Both the position numbers and the translations under genes were made by a program. A DNA stretch of 32,855 nt, from positions 1 to 32,855 of the IMG/VR virus record IMGVR_UViG_3300017763_000092. One strand, 5' to 3'. The notes under the pieces are model-generated. The model was not told the DNA's origin and ran no database searches. It saw nothing but the letters and a program-made list of their open reading frames with translations. The stretch is from a virus. The stretch's first letter is position 1. Every line of letters begins with the position of its first letter. This document shows positions 7,908-31,520 of the stretch, piece after piece.

Positions 7908-8737
7908 CTTTCGGTTCTTTTTACCATTATATCTTTAGGTAAACTTTTACCAGTATTCTTCCTATCACCTTTCATATGATCTATCCATCTACCAAGTTCA
8001 GTGTTAATTAACGGATGTCCACCGCCGCCAGTTTTTGCTTCTTTCAAATACATATCGGCACTATAATCCAATACATTATTGTCAATTTTTGTTAGTTGGT
8101 TTAAAATGTGTCCAAAAACAAAACTATCGTGCCATTCTTCTAATTCAAAAATACCGTTTTCGGCTTCTTCATAAAATCTTTCAAACTCTTTTATAAATTG
8201 TATACACATTGGATGGTTTTTATTTAATCCATAAAACCCGCACTCCGGCCAAGTTTGCGAACCTTTACCTCTACCTACATATGTAATCCATTTATCGTCT
8301 GGCAACAATTTTTTAAATTGTTTGTAACTCCACTTATTATGTACAAATGTATCGGCGTCCATCCACACACACCAATCTGTGCTTTTTTCAAATGCATCAA
8401 AAACAGCATAAACTTTGTTTGCAAAACGAATTGCATTCCATTTAAACTCTTTATGCCAATCTCTTGGTCTACGTGCTTTAATATCAGCAGGCGGTATACC
8501 ATTTGCTTTTGGTATATCTTTCCAACGCTGTTTAAATTTATTTAATTTAGGAAGTTCTCTGGTTGCTTGTATTTCTATTATTTGCGATCTATTAGTTATA
8601 GCAGGAAAACAATTCTCTGCATAAACAAGTAAATTTATGTTTGGATCAACATTTTCAGCAAAACTATCTAGGAAACGTTGTCCGTATTTGTCTAGTCCTT
8701 GTTTATGAAATGTTGTTACCACAGTTATGTTTGCCAT
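7895..8737 (-). CDS. Reverse-strand glycosyltransferase with DxD motif
   Basis: The 280-aa product begins ITVVTTFHKQGLDKYGQRFLDSF, a GT-A-type first strand and helix, and has a DAD metal motif at residues 127-129 in WCVWMDADTFVH. ECGFYGLNKNHP and EEWHDSFVF follow, with a late GGGGHPLINTELGRWIDHMKGDRK. This is the arrangement of small GT-A glycosyltransferases of phage and marine bacterial surface clusters. On its own strand ATG is preceded by aaggaag about 5 bases upstream, supporting the start. It is the only reverse gene in this cassette, which argues for separate acquisition or inversion. It would need its own promoter, which I cannot place with confidence. Confidence 0.75.
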   Translation of the reverse strand: MANITVVTTFHKQGLDKYGQRFLDSFAENVDPNINLLVYAENCFPAITNRSQIIEIQATRELPKLNKFKQRWKDIPKANGIPPADIKARRPRDWHKEFKWNAIRFANKVYAVFDAFEKSTDWCVWMDADTFVHNKWSYKQFKKLLPDDKWITYVGRGKGSQTWPECGFYGLNKNHPMCIQFIKEFERFYEEAENGIFELEEWHDSFVFGHILNQLTKIDNNVLDYSADMYLKEAKTGGGGHPLINTELGRWIDHMKGDRKNTGKSLPKDIMVKRTESYWT

Positions 8738-9643: not shown

Positions 9644-10879
9644 ATGAATGAAATACAATACATCGAAGACTTGTTAGCGTGTGTCTTAGGCAAATGGGGA
9701 CACACTTTCGCATTGAGAGATTCTGACTTATCGTTATTGAATAGTTTTGATAGACAAATTGTTAAGGGTGTTGCTCTCACAGATAGACAATATAATTTAC
9801 TAAAATTAAAATTAGAAATATATACAAAACAATTTGAAAAAAATAACATACCTAATTGGAGTGCTGCATTACAAAGTATAAGCACTGAGTTTAGAGAAAT
9901 AGATAGATCAAAATATATATCACTTGTTGAATTTGATAATATTGTTAAAAATAGTAGATCACATTATTCATTAAAAGAAGGACTATATATAAAAATTAGA
10001 TTTCCTTTTAATAAAAAATATATAACAAAGTTAGAGTCAATTATACATAGTAACAATAATAAAACATACTTTCACGAAAAAAACTCTCACGAACATTATT
10101 TTAAATTTACTGCATTAAATTGTTACAAATTACATTCAGCATTTCCTGATTGGCAAATTGATCAAACTATTACAGATGTATCTAAAAAAGTACAGCAAAT
10201 TTATGATAATAAAGATGCATTTATTCCCCAATATAAAAATAATAAATTTTTAAATGTAGATACAAATGTTGCTACGCAATTACAATCGACTGAAAAATTA
10301 AAAATTGCAGATTTATCTATTGCGTATGGGTTTTACGTTTCTGATATACAAGACAATACATTATTAGATAAGATTGCATATCGCAAACAACCAACTGTAC
10401 TTGCTAACATTGAAACAAATAGTTTATACGATATAGTAAATTGTATAGATTATTTAGAAAGATATCCTTTGATAGTTTGTATAGATAAAGACGATGCATT
10501 TGATCAAGTTAAAGAAATGCATACAGCAATATCAAAATACGTTCCAAATAATTTACAAAGTGTTATGTTTAGAGTTGAAAGTAGTGATAAAAAAAATAAT
10601 CAACTGAATAATTTTGTTAAAGAAAATATTCTTAACAACTGGGTAGACAAAACAACAAAAGTAGTGTATATTAAAAAAGATAAACTACCTAAAGTTTTAC
10701 TTAAAACAGATTTTAAGCCACGAACAGCAGTTTGTAAATCTAGCTTACGTTCTAATAGATTAGTAACTAATTATGTAAATTTTAATTGCGATTTGATAGT
10801 TTACAATGATATAAGTTTAAGTAGTTTTACTGAAACATACTATACCAAAGGATTTAATAATTGGCAACTTGTAGATTAA
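9644..10879 (+). CDS. Unknown 411-aa protein paired with UvsW
   Basis: I cannot name a family. The N-terminal helical part has LTDRQYNLLKLKLEIYTKQF (residues 45-64). A beta-containing segment (YIKIRFPFNKKYITKLESII near 115-134) faintly recalls the HARP-like accessory domains seen on SF2 remodelling enzymes. The C-terminal half has regular hydrophobic strands (RYPLIVCIDKDDAF, TTKVVYIKKDKLP, CDLIVYND) but no Walker A or DEAD-type motif. Its 3' end overlaps the UvsW start by 19 bases, so the two are co-translated. A role as a non-catalytic partner of UvsW is only a guess. The codon use is very AT-rich compared with UvsW. Confidence 0.75.
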   Translation: MNEIQYIEDLLACVLGKWGHTFALRDSDLSLLNSFDRQIVKGVALTDRQYNLLKLKLEIYTKQFEKNNIPNWSAALQSISTEFREIDRSKYISLVEFDNIVKNSRSHYSLKEGLYIKIRFPFNKKYITKLESIIHSNNNKTYFHEKNSHEHYFKFTALNCYKLHSAFPDWQIDQTITDVSKKVQQIYDNKDAFIPQYKNNKFLNVDTNVATQLQSTEKLKIADLSIAYGFYVSDIQDNTLLDKIAYRKQPTVLANIETNSLYDIVNCIDYLERYPLIVCIDKDDAFDQVKEMHTAISKYVPNNLQSVMFRVESSDKKNNQLNNFVKENILNNWVDKTTKVVYIKKDKLPKVLLKTDFKPRTAVCKSSLRSNRLVTNYVNFNCDLIVYNDISLSSFTETYYTKGFNNWQLVD

Positions 10880-12324
10880 TAATTGAAGACGAAGTAAATA
10901 TTAAACTAGAAGGACTAGAAGTCGATGTTCGGCGGAAGTTGTCAAATGCTCTCAAGTTCGATGTGCCATATGCAAGATATATGCCGCAGTACAAACTAGG
11001 ACGTTGGGACGGCAAGGTTGCTTTCTTTGGCATAGGCGGTACTGGCTATGTTAATCATCTTGATGTTGTACAAGAAGTACTTGCTAAGAACAGAGTACAA
11101 ATTGTTGACATTGATGATAGACGTCATCCAATACAATTAAACTTCAAACCAGTCACAGAAACATACTGGAAAGACCAAGGCGTTGTATGGCCTGAAGGAC
11201 ATCCAGCAGAAGGCGAAGATATTATTCTACGTGACTATCAAGTAGAAGCAATTAACAATTTCTTAGAAAATCCACAGAGCTTGCAACAGATTGCTACTGG
11301 TGCAGGCAAAACAATTACCACAGCAACGCTGTCACACATAAGCGAGCCGTATGGCAGAAGTCTTGTGATTGTTCCTAACAAGTCGTTGGTAGAACAAACA
11401 GAAGAGGACTATATTAACTGCGGCTTGGATGTAGGGGTGTACTTCGGAGACAGGAAGAACCTAGGTAAGACTCACACTATTTGCACTTGGCAGAGTTTGA
11501 ATATACTCGACAAGAAGAACAAGGACGGATCAGCAGTGTTATCACTTGCAGAGTTCTTGGAAGGTGTAAGCACTATTATTGTTGACGAAGTACACCAAGC
11601 TAAAGCAGAAGTTCTCAAGAACTTGCTTACACGCAACCTACGTAATGCACCCATACGTTGGGGACTAACTGGTACAGTACCTAAAGAGAAGTTTGAGTTT
11701 GAAAGCATACACGCTTCATTGGGTCCAGTTATTGGAAACATTAGTGCTAAAGAATTGCAAGACAAAGGTGTACTATCGCAATGTCACGTAAATATTGTGC
11801 AACTTATTGATACAGTAGCACACAGAGGTTATCAGGAAGAATTAAAATATCTTGTAACAAATCAAGATAGAATAAATTATTTAGGCAAATTATTAAAAAC
11901 AGTAAAAGAATCAGGCAATACTTTAATACTTGTAGATAGGATTAGTGCAGGTGAAATGTTAGCAGAACTAATACCCGATAGCACATTTGTTAGCGGTAGT
12001 GTTAAAGTAAAAGACAGAAAAGAAACTTACGACGAAATTAAAGAAGGTACAAACAAAGTTATTATTGCAACATACGGCGTTGCAGCAGTTGGCTTAAACA
12101 TACCTAGAATTTTCAATCTTGTTCTTATAGAGCCAGGAAAGAGTTTTGTTCGAGTTATACAAAGCATAGGCAGAGGCGTTCGAAAGGCAAAAGACAAAGA
12201 CTTCGTACAAATATGGGATCTTACAAGCACTTGTAAGTTTGCGAAGCGGCACCTTACCCAACGTAAAAAGTTTTATAAGGAAGCACAATACCCATTCACA
12301 ATAGAAAAAGTGGATTGGAAATAA
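10861..12324 (+). CDS. uvsW: UvsW-type SF2 helicase
   Basis: UvsW is the ATP-dependent helicase of T4-like phages that unwinds branched DNA and R-loops and helps switch replication from origins to recombination. Seen here: an N-terminal accessory domain with LGRWDGKV (residues 46-53, as in T4 UvsW GNWDG), a RDYQ motif at 124-127, motif I ATGAGKT at 145-151, DEVH motif II at 242-245, LTGTVP motif III at about 269-274, and QSIGRG motif VI at 434-439. Length of 487 aa is near T4's 503. The most likely start is TTG at 10861, since no ATG exists before the conserved N-terminal region. It overlaps the previous gene. Confidence 0.93.
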   Translation: MATCRLIIEDEVNIKLEGLEVDVRRKLSNALKFDVPYARYMPQYKLGRWDGKVAFFGIGGTGYVNHLDVVQEVLAKNRVQIVDIDDRRHPIQLNFKPVTETYWKDQGVVWPEGHPAEGEDIILRDYQVEAINNFLENPQSLQQIATGAGKTITTATLSHISEPYGRSLVIVPNKSLVEQTEEDYINCGLDVGVYFGDRKNLGKTHTICTWQSLNILDKKNKDGSAVLSLAEFLEGVSTIIVDEVHQAKAEVLKNLLTRNLRNAPIRWGLTGTVPKEKFEFESIHASLGPVIGNISAKELQDKGVLSQCHVNIVQLIDTVAHRGYQEELKYLVTNQDRINYLGKLLKTVKESGNTLILVDRISAGEMLAELIPDSTFVSGSVKVKDRKETYDEIKEGTNKVIIATYGVAAVGLNIPRIFNLVLIEPGKSFVRVIQSIGRGVRKAKDKDFVQIWDLTSTCKFAKRHLTQRKKFYKEAQYPFTIEKVDWK

Positions 12325-15338: not shown

Positions 15339-16007
15339 ATGACAACAGCAATATTAATCCCTGCAAGATATGCAAGCACAAGATTTCCTGGTAAAATGAT
15401 GGCACCACTAAATGGAGTTCCTTTAGTAGAGGTTGTTTACAATAAATGTGCAGCTACAGGACTAGATACATATGTTCTCACAGATGCACAAGAAGTGTAC
15501 AATCATATAGGCGCTGGTAAGTGCATTATGACACAACAAGCAGAAAATGGCACCGAACGTTGTATGCAAGCAATTGACGAAGTACTACAATACGATAGAT
15601 ATATAAATGTGCAAGGAGATATGCCAGATATTACAGCACAAATAATACTTGCAGTTGAAAATGAATTACATAGAAGCGATGTAGCAACGGCATATACACC
15701 TATGGATTTTAACTTGCGAAATGATCCAAACAGTGTTAAAATGATACACAGCAGGGGCAGAGCACATTGGTTTTTACGTGCTAGTTTAGAATATGGCGAT
15801 CATCATTTAGGTATATATGGTTATAATAGAGAAGCAAAGGCTATGTATAATGCAAGTACAAAATTTGTAGAAGAAGATATTGAAAAACTAGAGCAGTTAC
15901 GTTGGATACAAAATGGTGTACGTATAGGCGTAGTTGAAGTAGAATTTAATGGTATAGAAATAAACACACCAGCAGATTTAGAAAAGTGGGAAAAAAATAA
16001 TGGCTAA
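15339..16007 (+). CDS. kdsB: CMP-Kdo synthetase (3-deoxy-manno-octulosonate cytidylyltransferase)
   Basis: The enzyme activates Kdo with CTP to give CMP-Kdo, the donor for Kdo transferases. Signature motifs: IPARYASTRFPGKMM (residues 7-21), GTERC in the CTP-site segment, NVQGDMPDI (about 89-97) with the conserved Asp, FLRASLEYG, HHLGIYGYNRE and LEQLRWIQNGVRIGV near 185-200. Length of 222 aa is slightly below the usual 245-250. An aagg Shine-Dalgarno lies before ATG 15339. With kdsA just upstream it makes a Kdo activation pair; KdsD and KdsC equivalents are not seen, so the host would have to supply them. Confidence 0.92.
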   Translation: MTTAILIPARYASTRFPGKMMAPLNGVPLVEVVYNKCAATGLDTYVLTDAQEVYNHIGAGKCIMTQQAENGTERCMQAIDEVLQYDRYINVQGDMPDITAQIILAVENELHRSDVATAYTPMDFNLRNDPNSVKMIHSRGRAHWFLRASLEYGDHHLGIYGYNREAKAMYNASTKFVEEDIEKLEQLRWIQNGVRIGVVEVEFNGIEINTPADLEKWEKNNG

Positions 16008-16158: not shown

Positions 16159-16618
16159 AGAATTAGATCTTTTTAAAGAACTTATTCCTGCTATTGATAT
16201 GGGCATTAAAGAGTTGTATGATGCAGCAAGTGAAGATGGCAAGAAAGATATAAAACTTGACTTATGGAACTTGAACCGTTATATTAGTAGTGTAAAAGGC
16301 AATTACGAAAAGACCGCATTAGCATTGTTTAAAGTTAATGAATACTACAACAAAAATTGGAATGTGCTCGGCGGTACTAATCACGTGAAGTTACAATGGC
16401 AATTATTATGCGTTGCAGGTAAAACAGGAAAGAAACAGTTTCATCCTTGGATTGGACTCAAAAAGAAAAAAGACGACAGCAGCAAAGCAGTAAAATTATT
16501 ATCAAACATATATCCTGAAATGAAAATGGACGAGGTAGAAACCCTTGCTAGAATATCTACAAAAAAAGAAATTAAACAACTCGCCCTTGAATACGGTTAC
16601 GAAAAAGTTGACATCTAA
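16148..16618 (+). CDS. Unknown 156-aa protein upstream of zinc-finger and DnaE-like genes
   Basis: The frame is open from 16076, but ATG 16148 (MPNKELDLFKELIPAI) is preferred because it follows the typical small overlap with the previous gene and begins where the sequence becomes protein-like. The body is helical (IDMGIKELYDAASEDGKKDI; LWNLNRYISSVKGNYE) with FHPWIGLKKKK near 95-105 and an end LARISTKKEIKQLALEYGYEK. No catalytic motif is visible. From memory, related proteins occur in marine T4-like phages; I cannot confirm. A replication-related role is suggested only by its neighbours. Confidence 0.7.
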   Translation: MPNKELDLFKELIPAIDMGIKELYDAASEDGKKDIKLDLWNLNRYISSVKGNYEKTALALFKVNEYYNKNWNVLGGTNHVKLQWQLLCVAGKTGKKQFHPWIGLKKKKDDSSKAVKLLSNIYPEMKMDEVETLARISTKKEIKQLALEYGYEKVDI

Positions 16619-17288
16619 ATATACTTGTGAATATTGTAATAAGAGTTATGTTAAAGAAAGCACACTCTTAGCGCATATGTGTGAGCCCAAAAGACGCTGG
16701 CTACAAAAAGATGAAAAACGTGTTACCCTAGGATTTTATGCATTTCAAAGATTTTACACATTAAGTGCAGGACATAAAAAAGATAAAACATATGAAGAAT
16801 TTGTTAAGTCATCATTTTACAATGCTTTTGTTAAGTTTGGCAGTTTTGTTAATAACGTGCGTCCTTTGTATCCTGACAAATATATCGATTATGTTGTTAC
16901 TAGTAATGTAAAACTTGATCACTGGTGTCGTGATGAAATGTATGAAAAATATGCAATTGAACTTATTCGCAAAGAAGGAGTTGAAACCGCATTAGAACGC
17001 TCAATAAATACTATGGCTGAATGGAGTAAAGAAAAAAATAGTTCATATAATCACTACTTTTTATATGCAAGTACAAATAGAATAACCTGGGATATTAAAG
17101 ATGGTAAAATTTCTCCTTGGCTGGTACTAAACTGTAATAGTGGTAAAAAAGTTTTAAACGAACTTAATGACGAACAATTAGGAATGTTAAACAATGTACT
17201 AGATCCTCAGCACTGGGCATTAAGATTTAAACGACAGCCAAAAGATGTTGAACTTGTAAAACAAGTTGTGAAAGAAGCAAAACTATGA
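16608..17288 (+). CDS. Zinc-finger-containing protein, unknown function
   Basis: The likely start is TTG 16608, giving M-T-S-K-YTCEYCNKSY and overlapping the previous stop by 11 bases. In-frame TTGs at 16587 and 16545 are alternatives but lie in sequence that codes for the previous protein. An N-terminal finger has C7-x2-C10-x12-H23-x-C25 ligands, followed by a basic EPKRRW. The rest (226 aa in total) is helical and aromatic with LGFYAFQRFYTL, YIDYVVTSNVKLDHWCRDEMYEKY and a C-terminal WALRFKRQPKD. The finger suggests nucleic-acid or protein binding. The gene immediately precedes the mini-DnaE gene, 11 bases away. Confidence 0.7.
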   Translation: MTSKYTCEYCNKSYVKESTLLAHMCEPKRRWLQKDEKRVTLGFYAFQRFYTLSAGHKKDKTYEEFVKSSFYNAFVKFGSFVNNVRPLYPDKYIDYVVTSNVKLDHWCRDEMYEKYAIELIRKEGVETALERSINTMAEWSKEKNSSYNHYFLYASTNRITWDIKDGKISPWLVLNCNSGKKVLNELNDEQLGMLNNVLDPQHWALRFKRQPKDVELVKQVVKEAKL

Positions 17289-17299
17289 GGAGTAAATAA

Positions 17300-17860
17300 A
17301 TGCCAGATATTGATATAGATTTTGCAGACAGAGATGTGATACTATCACAGCTAAAACATCGTGTGGCAAAACTAGATACAGGCAAGAAGCACAACACTGG
17401 TGTTTACACTACAGAGATTCCGCATAATCCTATAGATGGCATAAGTACTATTGAACATAAGACTGCGGAAGAACGTGGCTACTTCAAACTAGACTTCCTT
17501 AATGTAAGCATCTACAAAGATATACGCAACGAGGAACATCTCACAGAATTAATGGAAAGGACACCACTATGGCAACTTCTGGAGCACAAAGACTTCGTAG
17601 ACAAAGTTTTTCATCTCTCAGGACACGACAAACTGTTGAAACAATTGAAGCCCACATCGGTAGAACAATTGGCTGCTACCCTTGCGATTATAAGGCCTGC
17701 CAAGCGGCATTTGGCAAATCAAAGTTGGGAAGAAATCTTAAAAGACGTTTGGATAAAACCAACCAACGGTGAATATTACTTTAAGAAGGCACACGCATTT
17801 GCTTATGCAATGAGTGTTATAGTACATATCAATTTATTGTGTGAATTAGCGTTTTCTTAA
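17300..17860 (+). CDS. Miniature DnaE-like (C-family DNA polymerase palm/finger) protein
   Basis: The 186-aa product keeps, in order, landmarks of bacterial DNA polymerase III alpha: PDIDIDF at residues 2-8 (two catalytic Asp), HNTGVYTTEI (31-40, cf. RHxGVH), GYFKLDFL at 60-67 (third catalytic Asp at 65), a VFHLSGHDKLLKQLKP-type segment then LAATLAIIRPAKRHL, and FKKAHAFAYAMS (161-172, cf. FNKSHAxAYA). The PHP domain, the first part of the palm and the C-terminal OB/clamp parts are missing, and the spacing between Asp 6 and Asp 65 is far shorter than in DnaE. A gaggag Shine-Dalgarno (17285-17290) supports the ATG. Activity is unknown. Confidence 0.82.
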   Translation: MPDIDIDFADRDVILSQLKHRVAKLDTGKKHNTGVYTTEIPHNPIDGISTIEHKTAEERGYFKLDFLNVSIYKDIRNEEHLTELMERTPLWQLLEHKDFVDKVFHLSGHDKLLKQLKPTSVEQLAATLAIIRPAKRHLANQSWEEILKDVWIKPTNGEYYFKKAHAFAYAMSVIVHINLLCELAFS

Positions 17861-18211
17861 AACTTGTACGCTTTTTCTTTTTATTCTTTTGTTTGATAAA
17901 TTATTTAAATTGACACAAGGGCCTACAGATATTTTTACATCTTTTGTATTCATAGTCATCATTGAATAATTAAAAGGTAACATTTCTGATTTTAAAAATA
18001 TATTAATTGGAATCATTCTGTTTGATTCCCACCACCAAACTTCACCAAGTTCTAAAAAATACTTTTTTTCTTGATCTGTTTTTAATTTATTAAAAACATA
18101 CATTGTTGTCACAAAGGTATCTTGATTTGAAACGATACCTACATATTCGTTACCACCGTAAGCAACAACACTTACATATGGAAATTTTTTTTCAATATCT
18201 TTCAATAACAT
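17846..18211 (-). CDS. Unknown 121-aa reverse-strand protein
   Basis: This product is encoded opposite to all neighbours and overlaps the end of the DnaE-like gene by 15 bases, tail to tail. It has YVSVVAYGGNEYVGIVSNQDTF at 12-33, FLELGEVWWWESNRMIPINIFL (about 52-73) and a basic C-terminal tail (RIKRKSVQVLRKR). The central WWWESNR motif and reading-frame integrity suggest a real gene; from memory similar proteins occur in T4-like marine phages. No function can be assigned. Its promoter would lie in the short divergent region that also serves the virion block. Confidence 0.72.
   Translation of the reverse strand: MLLKDIEKKFPYVSVVAYGGNEYVGIVSNQDTFVTTMYVFNKLKTDQEKKYFLELGEVWWWESNRMIPINIFLKSEMLPFNYSMMTMNTKDVKISVGPCVNLNNLSNKRIKRKSVQVLRKR
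17851..17880 (+). terminator. Weak terminator-like hairpin between convergent genes
   Basis: A 5-bp stem (gtttt 17851-17855, aaaac 17859-17863, 3-base loop) is followed a few bases on by a T-rich run (about 17872-17880). The stem is all A-T except one G-C pair, so termination would be weak. Position at the end of the DnaE-like gene, facing a convergent gene, is what supports it. Confidence 0.25.
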
Positions 18212-19538: not shown

Positions 19539-21377
19539 ATGAGTTTTGAATTAGTAAATGTAGGATCAGGAAAACTCGCAACAGACGGCGAATGTATTCG
19601 TGATGCCTTTGTAAAAATTAACAGCAATTTTACTAATGTATTTACGCTTATTGGCATTACACAAAACGTTATTACTGTTGATATTGATAATACAATAACT
19701 ACAACACAAAATATTAATCTGCAAAACAGCAGTAATCAAACTGTAGTACAATTACAAGTTGATCTAAGCAACAACCTTACTGTAAATGTTGATCAAAGCA
19801 TAATTATGACAATTGCTAATCAACTCAATATGACAGCAGAAAATGAAATCAATATTGTTTCAACATCTGGTGACATTAACATTACAACCGTTAACAACGA
19901 TATTGTAATGACTGCTGATAATATTAATTTAAATAATCAACTTATAATTAACAACACAACTACTGAATTAAATATTCCTTCAATATCTTCGCCAACCAAT
20001 GATAATGCAATAACATTTAACAATAATGATATAGACATTGTGTTAGCAGGACCGACATACGGCGATATTAACATCAATGCAGTTACAGGCGATGTAGTAG
20101 TAACAGGTGCTACAAACATAAACAATATTTTTAGTATAGATTTGTCTAATAATATTAATATGGGACTTAACGATGCAATTGCTATTGACTCAAGTGGCAA
20201 TGTTACTATAAATGAATTTTTTATAATAAATGCAAACAATACTGTTAACTATAACGATTTGTTTACGTTAGATAACACTAACCAAGCAACATTAGGTGTT
20301 AACGAAGCTGTCACTGTAAGTGGCGCACAAGTTGTTACAATTAATGGAAATATAATACAACAAAACGGCAACATTAATTTTAACAACTTGGTAGAAATAG
20401 ATGTAACAAATACAGAGGTTACAATCGGCGGTTCTGCTGTAACTATTGATAATTCTTCAACAAATGTTTTAAATATTGATGCTAGTCAAAACTTTATTAC
20501 TAATTCAACAAGCATTAATATGAACAACGTGTTAACAATTGATAACAGTAACAATGTTACACTTAACAGCAATTCTACAAATATACAAAATACAATTAAC
20601 ATAGACAACGGCGATAGAGTTACTATTGAATCTACAACTTGGAATATTGAAAATAACAATATTCAAACAATGAATGTTGATATATCAAATAATGTAACAA
20701 TGACAACTGCAAATTATGATATTGACACAACAAATAATTTTACTGTAAACAACGCACTAACAATTGATAACAGCAATAATGTTACAATGACAACAAATAC
20801 ATTTGATATAGATACCACTAATGATTTTACTATAAACAATGCATTTACAATTGATAACAGTAACAATGTAACATATACAGCAAACACATATAATTTAAAC
20901 AATGTATTAACCATTGACGCAAGTAACAATGTATCATTTGTTTCAAACACGTATGACATTACAAACAACAGTGTAAAAGTAATGAATGTTGACAACAGCA
21001 ATAATATTGATATGATATCTAACTCATACGATATAACAAACAATAGTGTTAATGTTTTTTCTGTAAGTAATACAAATACTATGGTATTGAATAATGCAAT
21101 TACTATTGATGCAAGTAAAAATATTACGTATGATAATGGTACAACAATTAACTTTGGTGCAGGAGATGTAAATTTTGGATCAGGTAACTTAGATTTTGGT
21201 AGTAGTACATTAAGCAATCTTGGAGTAAATGATCTTGATACATTCAATATTACAGCGCCTGCAAATAATGCTTTAATGGCTTGGAATAATGCAGCAGGTG
21301 AATGGCAAGATATACAATTAGCACCACAAGTTTACACAAGCGGTAGTGACTTGGTACTTGATGGAGGAGCTCCATAA
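19539..21377 (+). CDS. Asn-rich repeat tail-fibre protein
   Basis: The 612-aa product begins MSFELVNVGSG then CIRDAFVKINSNFTNVFTLIG, the N-terminal motif (x-x-R-x-A-F-x-K-x-N-x-N-F) seen on marine T4-like fibre and baseplate-linked proteins. Residues of about 65 to 530 are made of degenerate units around LTIDNSNNVTM-T-x-x-x-x-D-I-x-T-x-N, rich in Asn, Thr, Ile and Asp, as expected for a beta-solenoid shaft. The C-terminal part has FGAGDVNFGSGNLDFGSS, then ALMAWNNAAGEWQDI and the ending LVLDGGAP. The codons for DGG contain GGAGGA, which doubles as the Shine-Dalgarno of the next gene. A good aagga Shine-Dalgarno precedes the ATG. Confidence 0.82.
   Translation: MSFELVNVGSGKLATDGECIRDAFVKINSNFTNVFTLIGITQNVITVDIDNTITTTQNINLQNSSNQTVVQLQVDLSNNLTVNVDQSIIMTIANQLNMTAENEINIVSTSGDINITTVNNDIVMTADNINLNNQLIINNTTTELNIPSISSPTNDNAITFNNNDIDIVLAGPTYGDININAVTGDVVVTGATNINNIFSIDLSNNINMGLNDAIAIDSSGNVTINEFFIINANNTVNYNDLFTLDNTNQATLGVNEAVTVSGAQVVTINGNIIQQNGNINFNNLVEIDVTNTEVTIGGSAVTIDNSSTNVLNIDASQNFITNSTSINMNNVLTIDNSNNVTLNSNSTNIQNTINIDNGDRVTIESTTWNIENNNIQTMNVDISNNVTMTTANYDIDTTNNFTVNNALTIDNSNNVTMTTNTFDIDTTNDFTINNAFTIDNSNNVTYTANTYNLNNVLTIDASNNVSFVSNTYDITNNSVKVMNVDNSNNIDMISNSYDITNNSVNVFSVSNTNTMVLNNAITIDASKNITYDNGTTINFGAGDVNFGSGNLDFGSSTLSNLGVNDLDTFNITAPANNALMAWNNAAGEWQDIQLAPQVYTSGSDLVLDGGAP
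19740..21120 (+). repeat. Degenerate tandem repeat region coding for fibre shaft
   Basis: Imperfect units encoding NNALTIDNSNNVTM-like sequences recur, most similar between about 20520 and 21110; for example, attgataacag(c/t)aa(c/t)aatgt is found near 20537, 20763 and 20851. Unit boundaries drift, so exact copy number needs a dot plot. Confidence 0.7.
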
Positions 21378-28714: not shown

Positions 28715-29701
28715 ATGAGCATTGTGTCTGACGTCCTTACCCTATATCTGCCTGGCAAGCGCAAAACTACACCTAGTGGGTGGACCAGTTTTAATGCGCC
28801 TTGTTGTGTACATAACAATGAAAACACAGACACAAGAGGACGTGGTGGTGTTATATACGAAGGCGATACTGTAAGCTATCATTGTTTCAATTGCGGGTAC
28901 AAAGCAAGTTGGCAACCAGGACGTAATTTAAGTTATAAATTTAAAAAACTTTTGCAATGGTTAAATGCACCAGATGCTGATATTACAAAACTAGCACTAG
29001 ATGTTATGCGTGAAAATGAAGGTGTAGAAGTACAACAACGTAAAGTAGAACTACCTACATTTGGCACTGTGCATTTGCCCGAAGACAGTGTACGCATTGC
29101 AGACATTACAGAGTTTAACAAGCATAGTATGGCTGTTTTAGAATATATGGCCGCACGTAATTTAAACTTGGATGATACAAATTATTACTGGTCTTCACAG
29201 TTAGGATATAGAGAAAGACTGATAATACCTTTTACATATGAGGGGCGTATAGTTGGATATACAGCCCGTACAGTAGGGGAAAGCAAGCCAAAGTATCTTA
29301 CTGATAGTCAACCTGGTTTTGTATATAATTTAGACGAACAAGGACATAATAAAGCGTTTTGTATATTGTGCGAAGGCCCGCTAGATGCAATACACATAGA
29401 AGGTACTGCACTAACAGGCAGCGACATTGGAGATGCTCAAGCTTTGCTATTGAATAGACTAGGAAAAGATATATATGTTGTTCCTGATAGAGATAAAGCC
29501 GGTAGTAAGTTAGTAGAACAAGCTATTGATCGAGGATGGCACGTTAGCTTGCCTGATTGGGAAGATGAGATAAATGATATTGGAGAAGCTGTAGAAAAGT
29601 ATGGAAGGCTATATACTTTATACAGTATAGCAAGTGCTGCCGAAAGCAGTCCGTTGAAAATTAGATTAAAGGCAAAAAAATGGTTTACATTAAAAAATTA
29701 A
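28715..29701 (+). CDS. 61: DNA primase, gp61-like
   Basis: The enzyme makes RNA primers for lagging-strand synthesis and works with the gp41 helicase. An N-terminal zinc-binding domain is visible with C30/C31 and H33, then C57 and C60 in YHCFNCGYKASW. The TOPRIM region has ILCEGPLDAIHIEG (about 217-230, catalytic Glu 220) and VVPDRDKAGSKL (about 255-266, Asp pair 258/260). Length of 328 aa is close to T4 gp61 (342). The ATG has no Shine-Dalgarno and lies at the predicted transcription start. It overlaps the 40-aa gene starting at 29680. Confidence 0.92.
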   Translation: MSIVSDVLTLYLPGKRKTTPSGWTSFNAPCCVHNNENTDTRGRGGVIYEGDTVSYHCFNCGYKASWQPGRNLSYKFKKLLQWLNAPDADITKLALDVMRENEGVEVQQRKVELPTFGTVHLPEDSVRIADITEFNKHSMAVLEYMAARNLNLDDTNYYWSSQLGYRERLIIPFTYEGRIVGYTARTVGESKPKYLTDSQPGFVYNLDEQGHNKAFCILCEGPLDAIHIEGTALTGSDIGDAQALLLNRLGKDIYVVPDRDKAGSKLVEQAIDRGWHVSLPDWEDEINDIGEAVEKYGRLYTLYSIASAAESSPLKIRLKAKKWFTLKN

Positions 29702-29999: not shown

Positions 30000-31520
30000 A
30001 TGATCACTTGGGGAATAAGTGCTAACAGTCACGATGCAGCACTAGCAGTATTTAAAGATAAAAAACTAGTATATGCAAGCCACAGTGAACGATACAGTGG
30101 TATTAAGAATGATCCACACCTTAATAAAGAGATAATTAACTATGCACGTCAATGGGGAGAGCCTGATGAAATTATTTGGTACGAGAGACCCTTTAGAAAA
30201 ACTCTTAGACAGATTCGAGCAGGACAAAGCTTCGGGTACTTTAGGAAAAACAATATTAGTCGCTATCTTCGACAGTATGGTATATCTGCTCCTATTAAGT
30301 ATACTGATCATCACCTTGCCCATGGTGCTGCCGGTTTTTATACTAGTCCTTTTGCAGAAGCCAGTGTTGTGGTTATCGACAGTATTGGAGAGTTTGATAC
30401 ACTCACTATCTGGAACGCAACCAAAGAAAAAGGGCTCAAACGTATCTATAGACAGACGTATCCACATTCCGTGGGACTATGGTACTCCGCGTTCACGCAA
30501 AGAATAGGATTAAAGCCACAAGAGGATGAATACATTCTTATGGGTATGGCAGCATATGGAGACCCTTTAAGATTCTTTAATGAAATATTAGAGGAGTTCT
30601 TCCACCCTATTGATAGTCACGACGGCTTACAAGGCTTGGTTAATATAGCTTGGGATAGACCCAGGGTCAAATTACGTCATAATTTGCATAGAGGATGTAT
30701 GTGGTGGCGGCCAGAACTTGATACCCCACAAGACCTAATGGACATAGCGGCTGCTGTGCAATCAATATATGCGTACATATTGAAATATATAAGCAACTGG
30801 GCTAGATGGAAATCTCCTTCGGGTAATCTTGTACTAATAGGAGGCTGTGCTTTGAATTGTGCGGCTAATAGTACTATACGCAGTGATTGGAATAATGTTT
30901 GGATAATGCCTAACCCGGGAGACGCCGGCAGTGCTATTGGTGCACCTTTAGCTCATTGGCGGCAGCATATCGAATGGCCGGGTCCGTATTTAGGACACAA
31001 CATAGAAGGAGAATATCCTGTTGAAGAAATATTACAAGAATTACTTACTACTGGTATTGTTGGCGTGGCCAACGGCCGTGCAGAGTTTGGACCTAGAGCT
31101 CTTGGCAACCGCTCCTTACTTGCAGATCCCAGAGGAGAAGATATTAAAGACCGAGTCAACAACATTAAACAGAGGCAACTTTTCAGACCCTTTGCACCCG
31201 CTATATTGGAGGAACATACCAAAGATTACTTTGACGGCTACACCGGACCATATATGCAATATACATCAACTTGCACAGATCCTGGACTACCTGCAATCAT
31301 CCACGGGGACGGCACCAGTAGGGTACAGACAGTTTCTAAAAATGAAAGCACAGGCTTTAGAAAATTGCTAGAACGTTGGTATGAAGAGACAGGGTGTCCG
31401 TTACTGTTAAATACTAGTCTAAACATAAAAGGTCAGCCGATTGTAAACGACGAGGCCGATGCTAAAGTGTTTGAAAAACATTATGGAGTAAAAGTTTGTA
31501 CGGTTGCTGCAAAAACGTAG
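30000..31520 (+). CDS. Carbamoyltransferase, NodU/CmcH family
   Basis: The family transfers a carbamoyl group from carbamoyl phosphate to a hydroxyl, with ATP. Seen: WGISANSHDAALAVFKD (residues 4-20, the ASKHA-type phosphate loop), KYTDHHLAHGAAGFYTSPF (about 100-118, metal-binding His cluster), VVVIDSIGEFDT, MGMAAYGDP, LIGGCALNCAANS near 276-288, and the C-terminal NGRAEFGPRALGNRSLLADPR, RPFAPAILEEH and LLNTSLNIKGQPIV. All landmarks are intact and 506 aa is within the usual range. In T4-like marine phages such genes are recurrent. The substrate may be a glycan, a nucleotide or a tRNA; unknown. It lies between primase and helicase. Confidence 0.9.
   Translation: MITWGISANSHDAALAVFKDKKLVYASHSERYSGIKNDPHLNKEIINYARQWGEPDEIIWYERPFRKTLRQIRAGQSFGYFRKNNISRYLRQYGISAPIKYTDHHLAHGAAGFYTSPFAEASVVVIDSIGEFDTLTIWNATKEKGLKRIYRQTYPHSVGLWYSAFTQRIGLKPQEDEYILMGMAAYGDPLRFFNEILEEFFHPIDSHDGLQGLVNIAWDRPRVKLRHNLHRGCMWWRPELDTPQDLMDIAAAVQSIYAYILKYISNWARWKSPSGNLVLIGGCALNCAANSTIRSDWNNVWIMPNPGDAGSAIGAPLAHWRQHIEWPGPYLGHNIEGEYPVEEILQELLTTGIVGVANGRAEFGPRALGNRSLLADPRGEDIKDRVNNIKQRQLFRPFAPAILEEHTKDYFDGYTGPYMQYTSTCTDPGLPAIIHGDGTSRVQTVSKNESTGFRKLLERWYEETGCPLLLNTSLNIKGQPIVNDEADAKVFEKHYGVKVCTVAAKT

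Follow-up and report, generated by a model that had tools for sequence, protein, structure and literature searches.

A probable C-terminal half of a split, minimal DnaE-type polymerase from an uncultured marine phage

The window analysed here is the whole of IMG/VR virus record IMGVR_UViG_3300017763_000092, a stretch of 32,855 nucleotides of viral DNA. An open reading frame (ORF) at 17300-17860 on the + strand starts with ATG and encodes a protein of 186 amino acids (aa), which a first-pass annotation of the sequence had described as a miniature DnaE palm and finger protein in a T4-like phage. The protein is indeed a derivative of DnaE (DNA polymerase III alpha), as its residues, its predicted fold and a weak profile match to solved structures together indicate. 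Its palm, on the other hand, is incomplete, the half with the GRGS motif being encoded by a separate gene in relatives, and the window protein is probably one subunit, the C-terminal one, of a minimal DnaE-type DNA polymerase encoded by two genes. The two parts are called the N-half and the C-half below. The gene and its conserved elements are as follows.

17287..17292, + strand: ribosome-binding site GAGGAG, with the ATG 7 nt further on (from the sequence)
17300..17860, + strand: C-terminal half of split minimal DNA polymerase III alpha (PHROG_11778, fold and alignment)
17306..17320, + strand: codons of D3-I-D5-I-D7, equivalent to E. coli D401 and D403 (metal ligands) and D405 (DnaE-specific); 75 of 75 members
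17390..17401, + strand: H31..G34 segment, equivalent to E. coli KHAGGVV, H511..G514; invariant, paired by hhalign
17486..17494, + strand: K63-L-D65, equivalent to K553 and the third metal ligand D555; invariant, paired by hhalign
17693..17698, + strand: R132-P133 of the reduced fingers, equivalent to E. coli R639-P640; invariant, paired by hhalign
17783..17797, + strand: KKAHA finger motif, with H165 equivalent to the E. coli steric-gate H760; H165 in 75 of 75 members

The window gene is real and under purifying selection, with a ratio of nonsynonymous to synonymous substitution rates (dN/dS) of 0.06-0.12 against nine relatives. Its product matches PHROG_11778, labelled 'DNA polymerase', over residues 3-184 (E=2e-60) and a second DnaE-type family, PHROG_405 (E=3e-8). 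Searches with tblastn found relatives of the C-half in 61 phage records, all with query coverage of at least 80%, and at least 550 stretches of IMG/VR hold further relatives; the family is abundant among viral contigs, where it mostly carries no label. The window comes from an uncultured phage whose close relatives are IMG/VR viral contigs; cultured members share at most ~53% identity with the window protein. The 127 complete C-halves measure 182-213 aa, and all begin, when the nearest upstream start is taken, 1-15 residues before DxDxD.

The DnaE motifs are present in the order first reported: PDIDIDF (residues 2-8), KHNTGVY (30-36), KLDFLNV (63-69), VFHLSGHDKLLKQLKP..IRP and FKKAHAFAYA. Invariance was counted over 75 non-redundant aligned C-half members, and for the middle part of the C-half the pairing with E. 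coli residues comes from the hhalign alignment. D3, D5, D7, H31, G34, K63, D65, R132, P133 and H165 are the same in all 75 members and correspond, in that order, to D401, D403, D405, H511, G514, K553, D555, R639, P640 and H760 of E. coli alpha. Catalytic metals are bound by D401, D403 and D555 throughout the C family (PMC3919608), and the survey of homologues found the counterparts of this hallmark triad, D3, D5 and D65, kept in every member. The same holds for D7, the counterpart of D405, which distinguishes DnaE from PolC, where Asn stands (PMC3919608), and for H165, the counterpart of H760, the proposed steric gate (PMC8485763). The absence of the PHP, thumb, clamp-binding and OB regions, noted at the outset, was confirmed, as was the collapsed spacing between the aspartates, D5 and D65 being 60 residues apart versus 152 for D403 and D555 in E. 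coli.

Profile searches against Pol III alpha gave a divided answer, with the strong match to PHROG_11778 on one side and only faint signals from Pfam and the solved structures on the other. The Pfam model DNA_pol3_finger scores the window protein at 0.0044, below the family cut-off, and matches 66 of the 75 relatives at E up to 0.1, while the profile search of solved structures placed DNA polymerase III alpha at the top with a weak value (E=0.005). When the C-half profile was aligned with E. coli DnaE by hhalign, the probability was only 11%, yet the motifs were correctly paired. The AlphaFold2 model of the C-half has a mean predicted local distance difference test (pLDDT) score of 90.3 and a predicted template modelling (pTM) score of 0.81, and ranks 1-13 of its Foldseek search are C-family polymerases. 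VIA-align superposes this model on E. coli 2hnh 400-781 and Taq 3e0d 461-838 with Z of 9.0-9.1, spanning 181-183 of the 186 residues, and the first unrelated chain follows at Z 3.6. A Z of about 9 is moderate by itself, yet it stands far above the remaining chains and covers the whole C-half. It is the fold search with the predicted model, rather than hhalign alone, that settles the kinship of the C-half with DnaE.

E. coli alpha has GRGS at 361, FERFLNP at 388 and PDFDVDF at 400. The window protein opens precisely with its catalytic strand, PDIDIDF; the GRGS segment, which in DnaE comes immediately before, is absent from the chain, and this leaves the palm incomplete. In G002, a viral contig of 236,751 bp, the Pfam family PF07733 is divided over two genes ~122 kb apart, with its positions 20-95 in one gene, the N-half, and 96-196 in the C-half. 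The N-half of G002 has 185 aa, belongs to PHROG_11127, scores above the PF07733 cut-off and ends with ..VGRGSSVASYVLYLIGVHKINSIQYGLDWREFLR. At the junction the N-half stops with ..DWREFLR and the C-half opens with MPDIDIDF, where E. coli has FERFLNPERVSMPDFDVDF. Residues 80-185 of the N-half model align with E. coli alpha (2hnh) 278-393 at Z 10.8; as the N-half thus covers 278-393 and the C-half 400-781, the cut falls in the loop before the catalytic strand with a loss of about six residues. The lengths of the 111 N-halves fall between 169 and 217 aa; wherever an EF(L/F/M) motif can be recognised, the chain ends no more than 4 residues after the motif Phe, and GRGSS is invariant in 51 N-halves. 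No fused or side-by-side halves were found among 129 C-half and 111 N-half loci. Cyanobacterial DnaE is likewise encoded by two distant genes, for DnaE-n and DnaE-c, but its break is within the KSH motif of the fingers, and its products are joined by trans-splicing through a split intein, whereas the phage polymerase is split before PDIDIDF and neither of its short halves has room for an intein.

The two halves travel together. Of the 60 phage records listed for the C-half, 59 also contain the N-half, the exception being a partial record of 109 kb. Both were seen in G002, G007, G008, G012 and other IMG/VR contigs; the C-half occurs in all 10 N-half contigs of at least 190 kb, and the N-half in 3 of the 4 C-half contigs above 230 kb. 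The miss, G001 (262 kb), is uninformative as a counter-example, since it also lacks the family B polymerase gene and the GroES-like neighbour of the N-half and is therefore probably incomplete. A weak N-half-like match in G010 (L245) was rejected as a partner: the 420-aa frame in question runs off the contig end and encodes a PHP-less DnaE of the one-chain type, distinct from the N-half. In all the large genomes that were checked and carry both halves, a gene for a family B polymerase is present too, in agreement with the initial description of a reduced C-family palm and finger protein in a T4-like lineage. The family B polymerase extends over two open frames in Paride (88906-92683), Atu_ph07 (212336-213688) and G007 (197657-200284), and in these phages it could itself be split or interrupted.

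A 'split minimal DNA Pol III alpha' of jumbo phages was reported by Iyer et al. 2021, and the split form was proposed to be ancestral (PMC7824862). A C-family palm beside a family B polymerase, called unexpected in the first-pass annotation, is thus present as claimed but has been known since 2021. In that description a separate C-terminal unit carries the Mg-binding and template-binding parts, as does the window ORF; an N-terminal NTP-binding unit lies elsewhere in the genome and a family B polymerase accompanies the pair, as was found in the relatives; and the units would assemble into one enzyme, as is likely here too. The split form corresponds to PHROG_11127 plus PHROG_11778, the window protein falling in the C-terminal family. 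Individual members have appeared as a truncated 172-aa alpha in CBB (PMC5259590) and as a Pol III alpha, gp316, in Atu_ph07 (PMC6102473). The window protein is a marine addition to this family, unlike the cultured members in that its lineage is uncultured and only one half is visible in the fragment. Beyond PMC7824862, the present comparison adds the exact junction, the residue conservation and the structural complementarity of the halves.

Like bacterial DnaE (2hnh, 3e0d), the phage form has the Asp triad, the D405-type Asp, Lys553, the finger R-P and the steric-gate His. Unlike it, the phage form consists of two chains without the PHP, thumb, clamp-binding, OB and tau-binding regions, and its fingers are cut to ~115 residues. 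Canonical C-family polymerases hold PHP, Palm, Thumb and Fingers in one polypeptide (PMC3666897); with PHP and thumb missing, the palm spread over two genes and the fingers reduced, the phage protein is classed as a derived split form and not as a canonical DnaE. The PHP-less one-chain DnaE of phages (PHROG_11165 and PHROG_405 types) offers a further parallel, a phage-encoded palm and finger core equally free of PHP, but it forms one continuous chain (782 positions in the PHROG_11165 profile). Two marine relatives, those of L031 and L034, carry an end-truncated DnaE of this type in addition to the C-half, so that one phage has two C-family polymerases. The frames concerned, of 420 or more aa and cut by the contig end, are L245:2-1261 in G010, which follows closely on a helicase-like ORF at a distance of ~6 kb from the C-half, and the matching 420-aa frame in G026 (L252).

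In the proposed enzyme, the N-half (E. coli alpha 278-393) would contribute the opening portion of the palm, including the GRGS motif for nucleotide binding. The C-half, equivalent to E. coli 400-781 minus the thumb and most of the fingers, would bring in the DxD strand of the catalytic centre, the third metal Asp and the reduced fingers with the steric-gate His. Either chain by itself leaves the pol-beta active site incomplete, whereas the pair contains all its elements. The two chains would most likely associate non-covalently and so rebuild a single active site of the pol-beta fold. As the sugar gate is retained, the rebuilt site is expected to add deoxynucleoside triphosphates (dNTPs) at a primer end, with low processivity because it has neither thumb nor PHP domain and no clamp-binding or OB region. 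Its role beside the family B replicase may be short gap filling, primer extension or repair. A DnaQ/epsilon-like RNase_T exonuclease encoded ~2-5 kb from one half in five relatives may perhaps act as a third subunit.

G002:C1:185787-186266: stand-alone RNase_T exonuclease
XacN1 118830-119339: stand-alone RNase_T exonuclease
RAS14 207400-207921: stand-alone RNase_T exonuclease
RaK2 109954-110460: stand-alone RNase_T exonuclease
121Q 8164-8679: stand-alone RNase_T exonuclease

These exonuclease genes are the ground for supposing that the pair joins a phage epsilon-like subunit in a larger proofreading repair polymerase. This is unlikely, as linkage to the halves is weak evidence where replication genes cluster anyway; moreover, the gene lies far from the polymerase halves in Atu_ph07, and no RNase_T match was obtained in 6 of the 13 genomes checked, the likely fragment G001 among them. 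A more doubtful idea is that the halves come together as a DnaE-like module with a non-catalytic or regulatory task, such as that of a scaffold in the replisome or of a decoy aimed at host Pol III. The loss of thumb, PHP, clamp-binding and OB regions means that productive synthesis is not a given, and a family B replicase is already present; scaffolds, however, normally lose catalytic residues, whereas the known catalytic and sugar-gating residues are all invariant over divergent phages of many hosts, and the parts of alpha that touch the clamp, tau and epsilon are exactly those dropped. The inactive regulator entertained in the first-pass annotation is disfavoured by the same invariance of the aspartates.

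The other function suggested there, a self-standing minimal nucleotidyltransferase, is improbable as well. The C-half chain does contain the three metal aspartates and the steric-gate His, and its model folds confidently alone. Missing from it, however, are the elements to which the dNTP phosphates bind in a pol-beta fold, namely the GS motif and the first helices of the palm, and these are preserved, and invariant, in the co-occurring separate gene; the protein is rather a C-terminal half, split just before the catalytic DxD strand. Hardly any weight can be given to a decaying, non-functional remnant of a full-length DnaE, even though the protein is far shorter than any bacterial alpha and its homologue in CBB was termed truncated in an earlier paper (PMC5259590). 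The uniform length in 127 relatives, the low dN/dS, the invariant active site and the conserved gene order already contradict it.

Several points weigh against a working two-gene polymerase. Bacterial C-family enzymes always have PHP and thumb, and the stability and activity of E. coli Pol III drop with PHP mutations (PMC3666897), so an enzyme without both domains may be weak or need extra subunits. The N-half model is poor across residues 1-80, and a PF07733 search gave no match to an N-half within the window, a 32.9-kb fragment, so that the partner is known from relatives. The sequence profile is weak by itself, with E=0.005 against the PDB and the Pfam finger model under its cut-off, and the case accordingly combines structure with the partner gene. 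No biochemistry or functional study of the split polymerase was found in the open-access papers searched, subscription papers and preprints lying outside the search.

The preferred reading, a two-gene polymerase, nevertheless remains the probable one, and more speculatively the halves might form the smallest C-family DNA polymerase known, a non-covalent heterodimer of ~370 residues, PHP-free, thumb-free and clamp-independent, beside a family B replicase and possibly served by an epsilon-like exonuclease in trans. Were this tentative extension true, it would reveal which parts of DnaE are truly required for catalysis, and the heterodimer might preserve an ancestral two-piece state. Activity of the halves would define the minimal C-family catalytic core, allow the contributions of thumb, PHP and clamp contacts to be tested simply with two plasmids, and explain why large T4-like phages retain a bacterial-type polymerase beside the family B replicase. 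Replication in dormant Pseudomonas has been reported for Paride, a relative (PMC10761892), and one may speculate that an extra repair or gap-filling polymerase matters to this phage in dormant cells.

The neighbours of the C-half gene in the window are the following.

10861-12324: UvsW; the C-half is commonly downstream of UvsW
16545..17288, + strand: upstream neighbour of ~240 aa, PHROG_11058 (function unknown), with the C2H2-like zinc-finger motif CEYCNKSYVKESTLLAHMC
17846..18211, - strand: convergent neighbour of 121 aa, PHROG_11637, with a 15-nt overlap with the C-half gene
28715..29701, + strand: DNA primase, gp61-like, PHROG_47

The C-half and the N-half both sit in replication neighbourhoods. 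The C-half is commonly upstream of the convergent small gene, a virion protein, primase and the gp41 helicase, with the same order in relatives, and a convergent gene of ~120 aa occupies the same place in RaK2, Paride, Phosso, Atu_ph07, SCTP-2 and Vibrio 2.275.O. Genes of the size of the PHROG_11058 neighbour precede the C-half in relatives, and its zinc-finger protein could be a partner of the C-half. Downstream of the N-half come a small gene and a GroES/gp31-like gene, to which several phages add the clamp loader gp44.

Elsewhere in the window, 19539-21377 is a 612-aa ORF of degenerate Asn-rich repeats (..NVLTIDNSNNVT..) beside tail-fibre genes and has no PHROG match. The window also holds a KdsB-like sugar cytidylyltransferase at 15339-16007, judged by eye, and a Nol-like carbamoyltransferase of PHROG_1601 at 30000-31517, which together suggest sugar or nucleotide modification.
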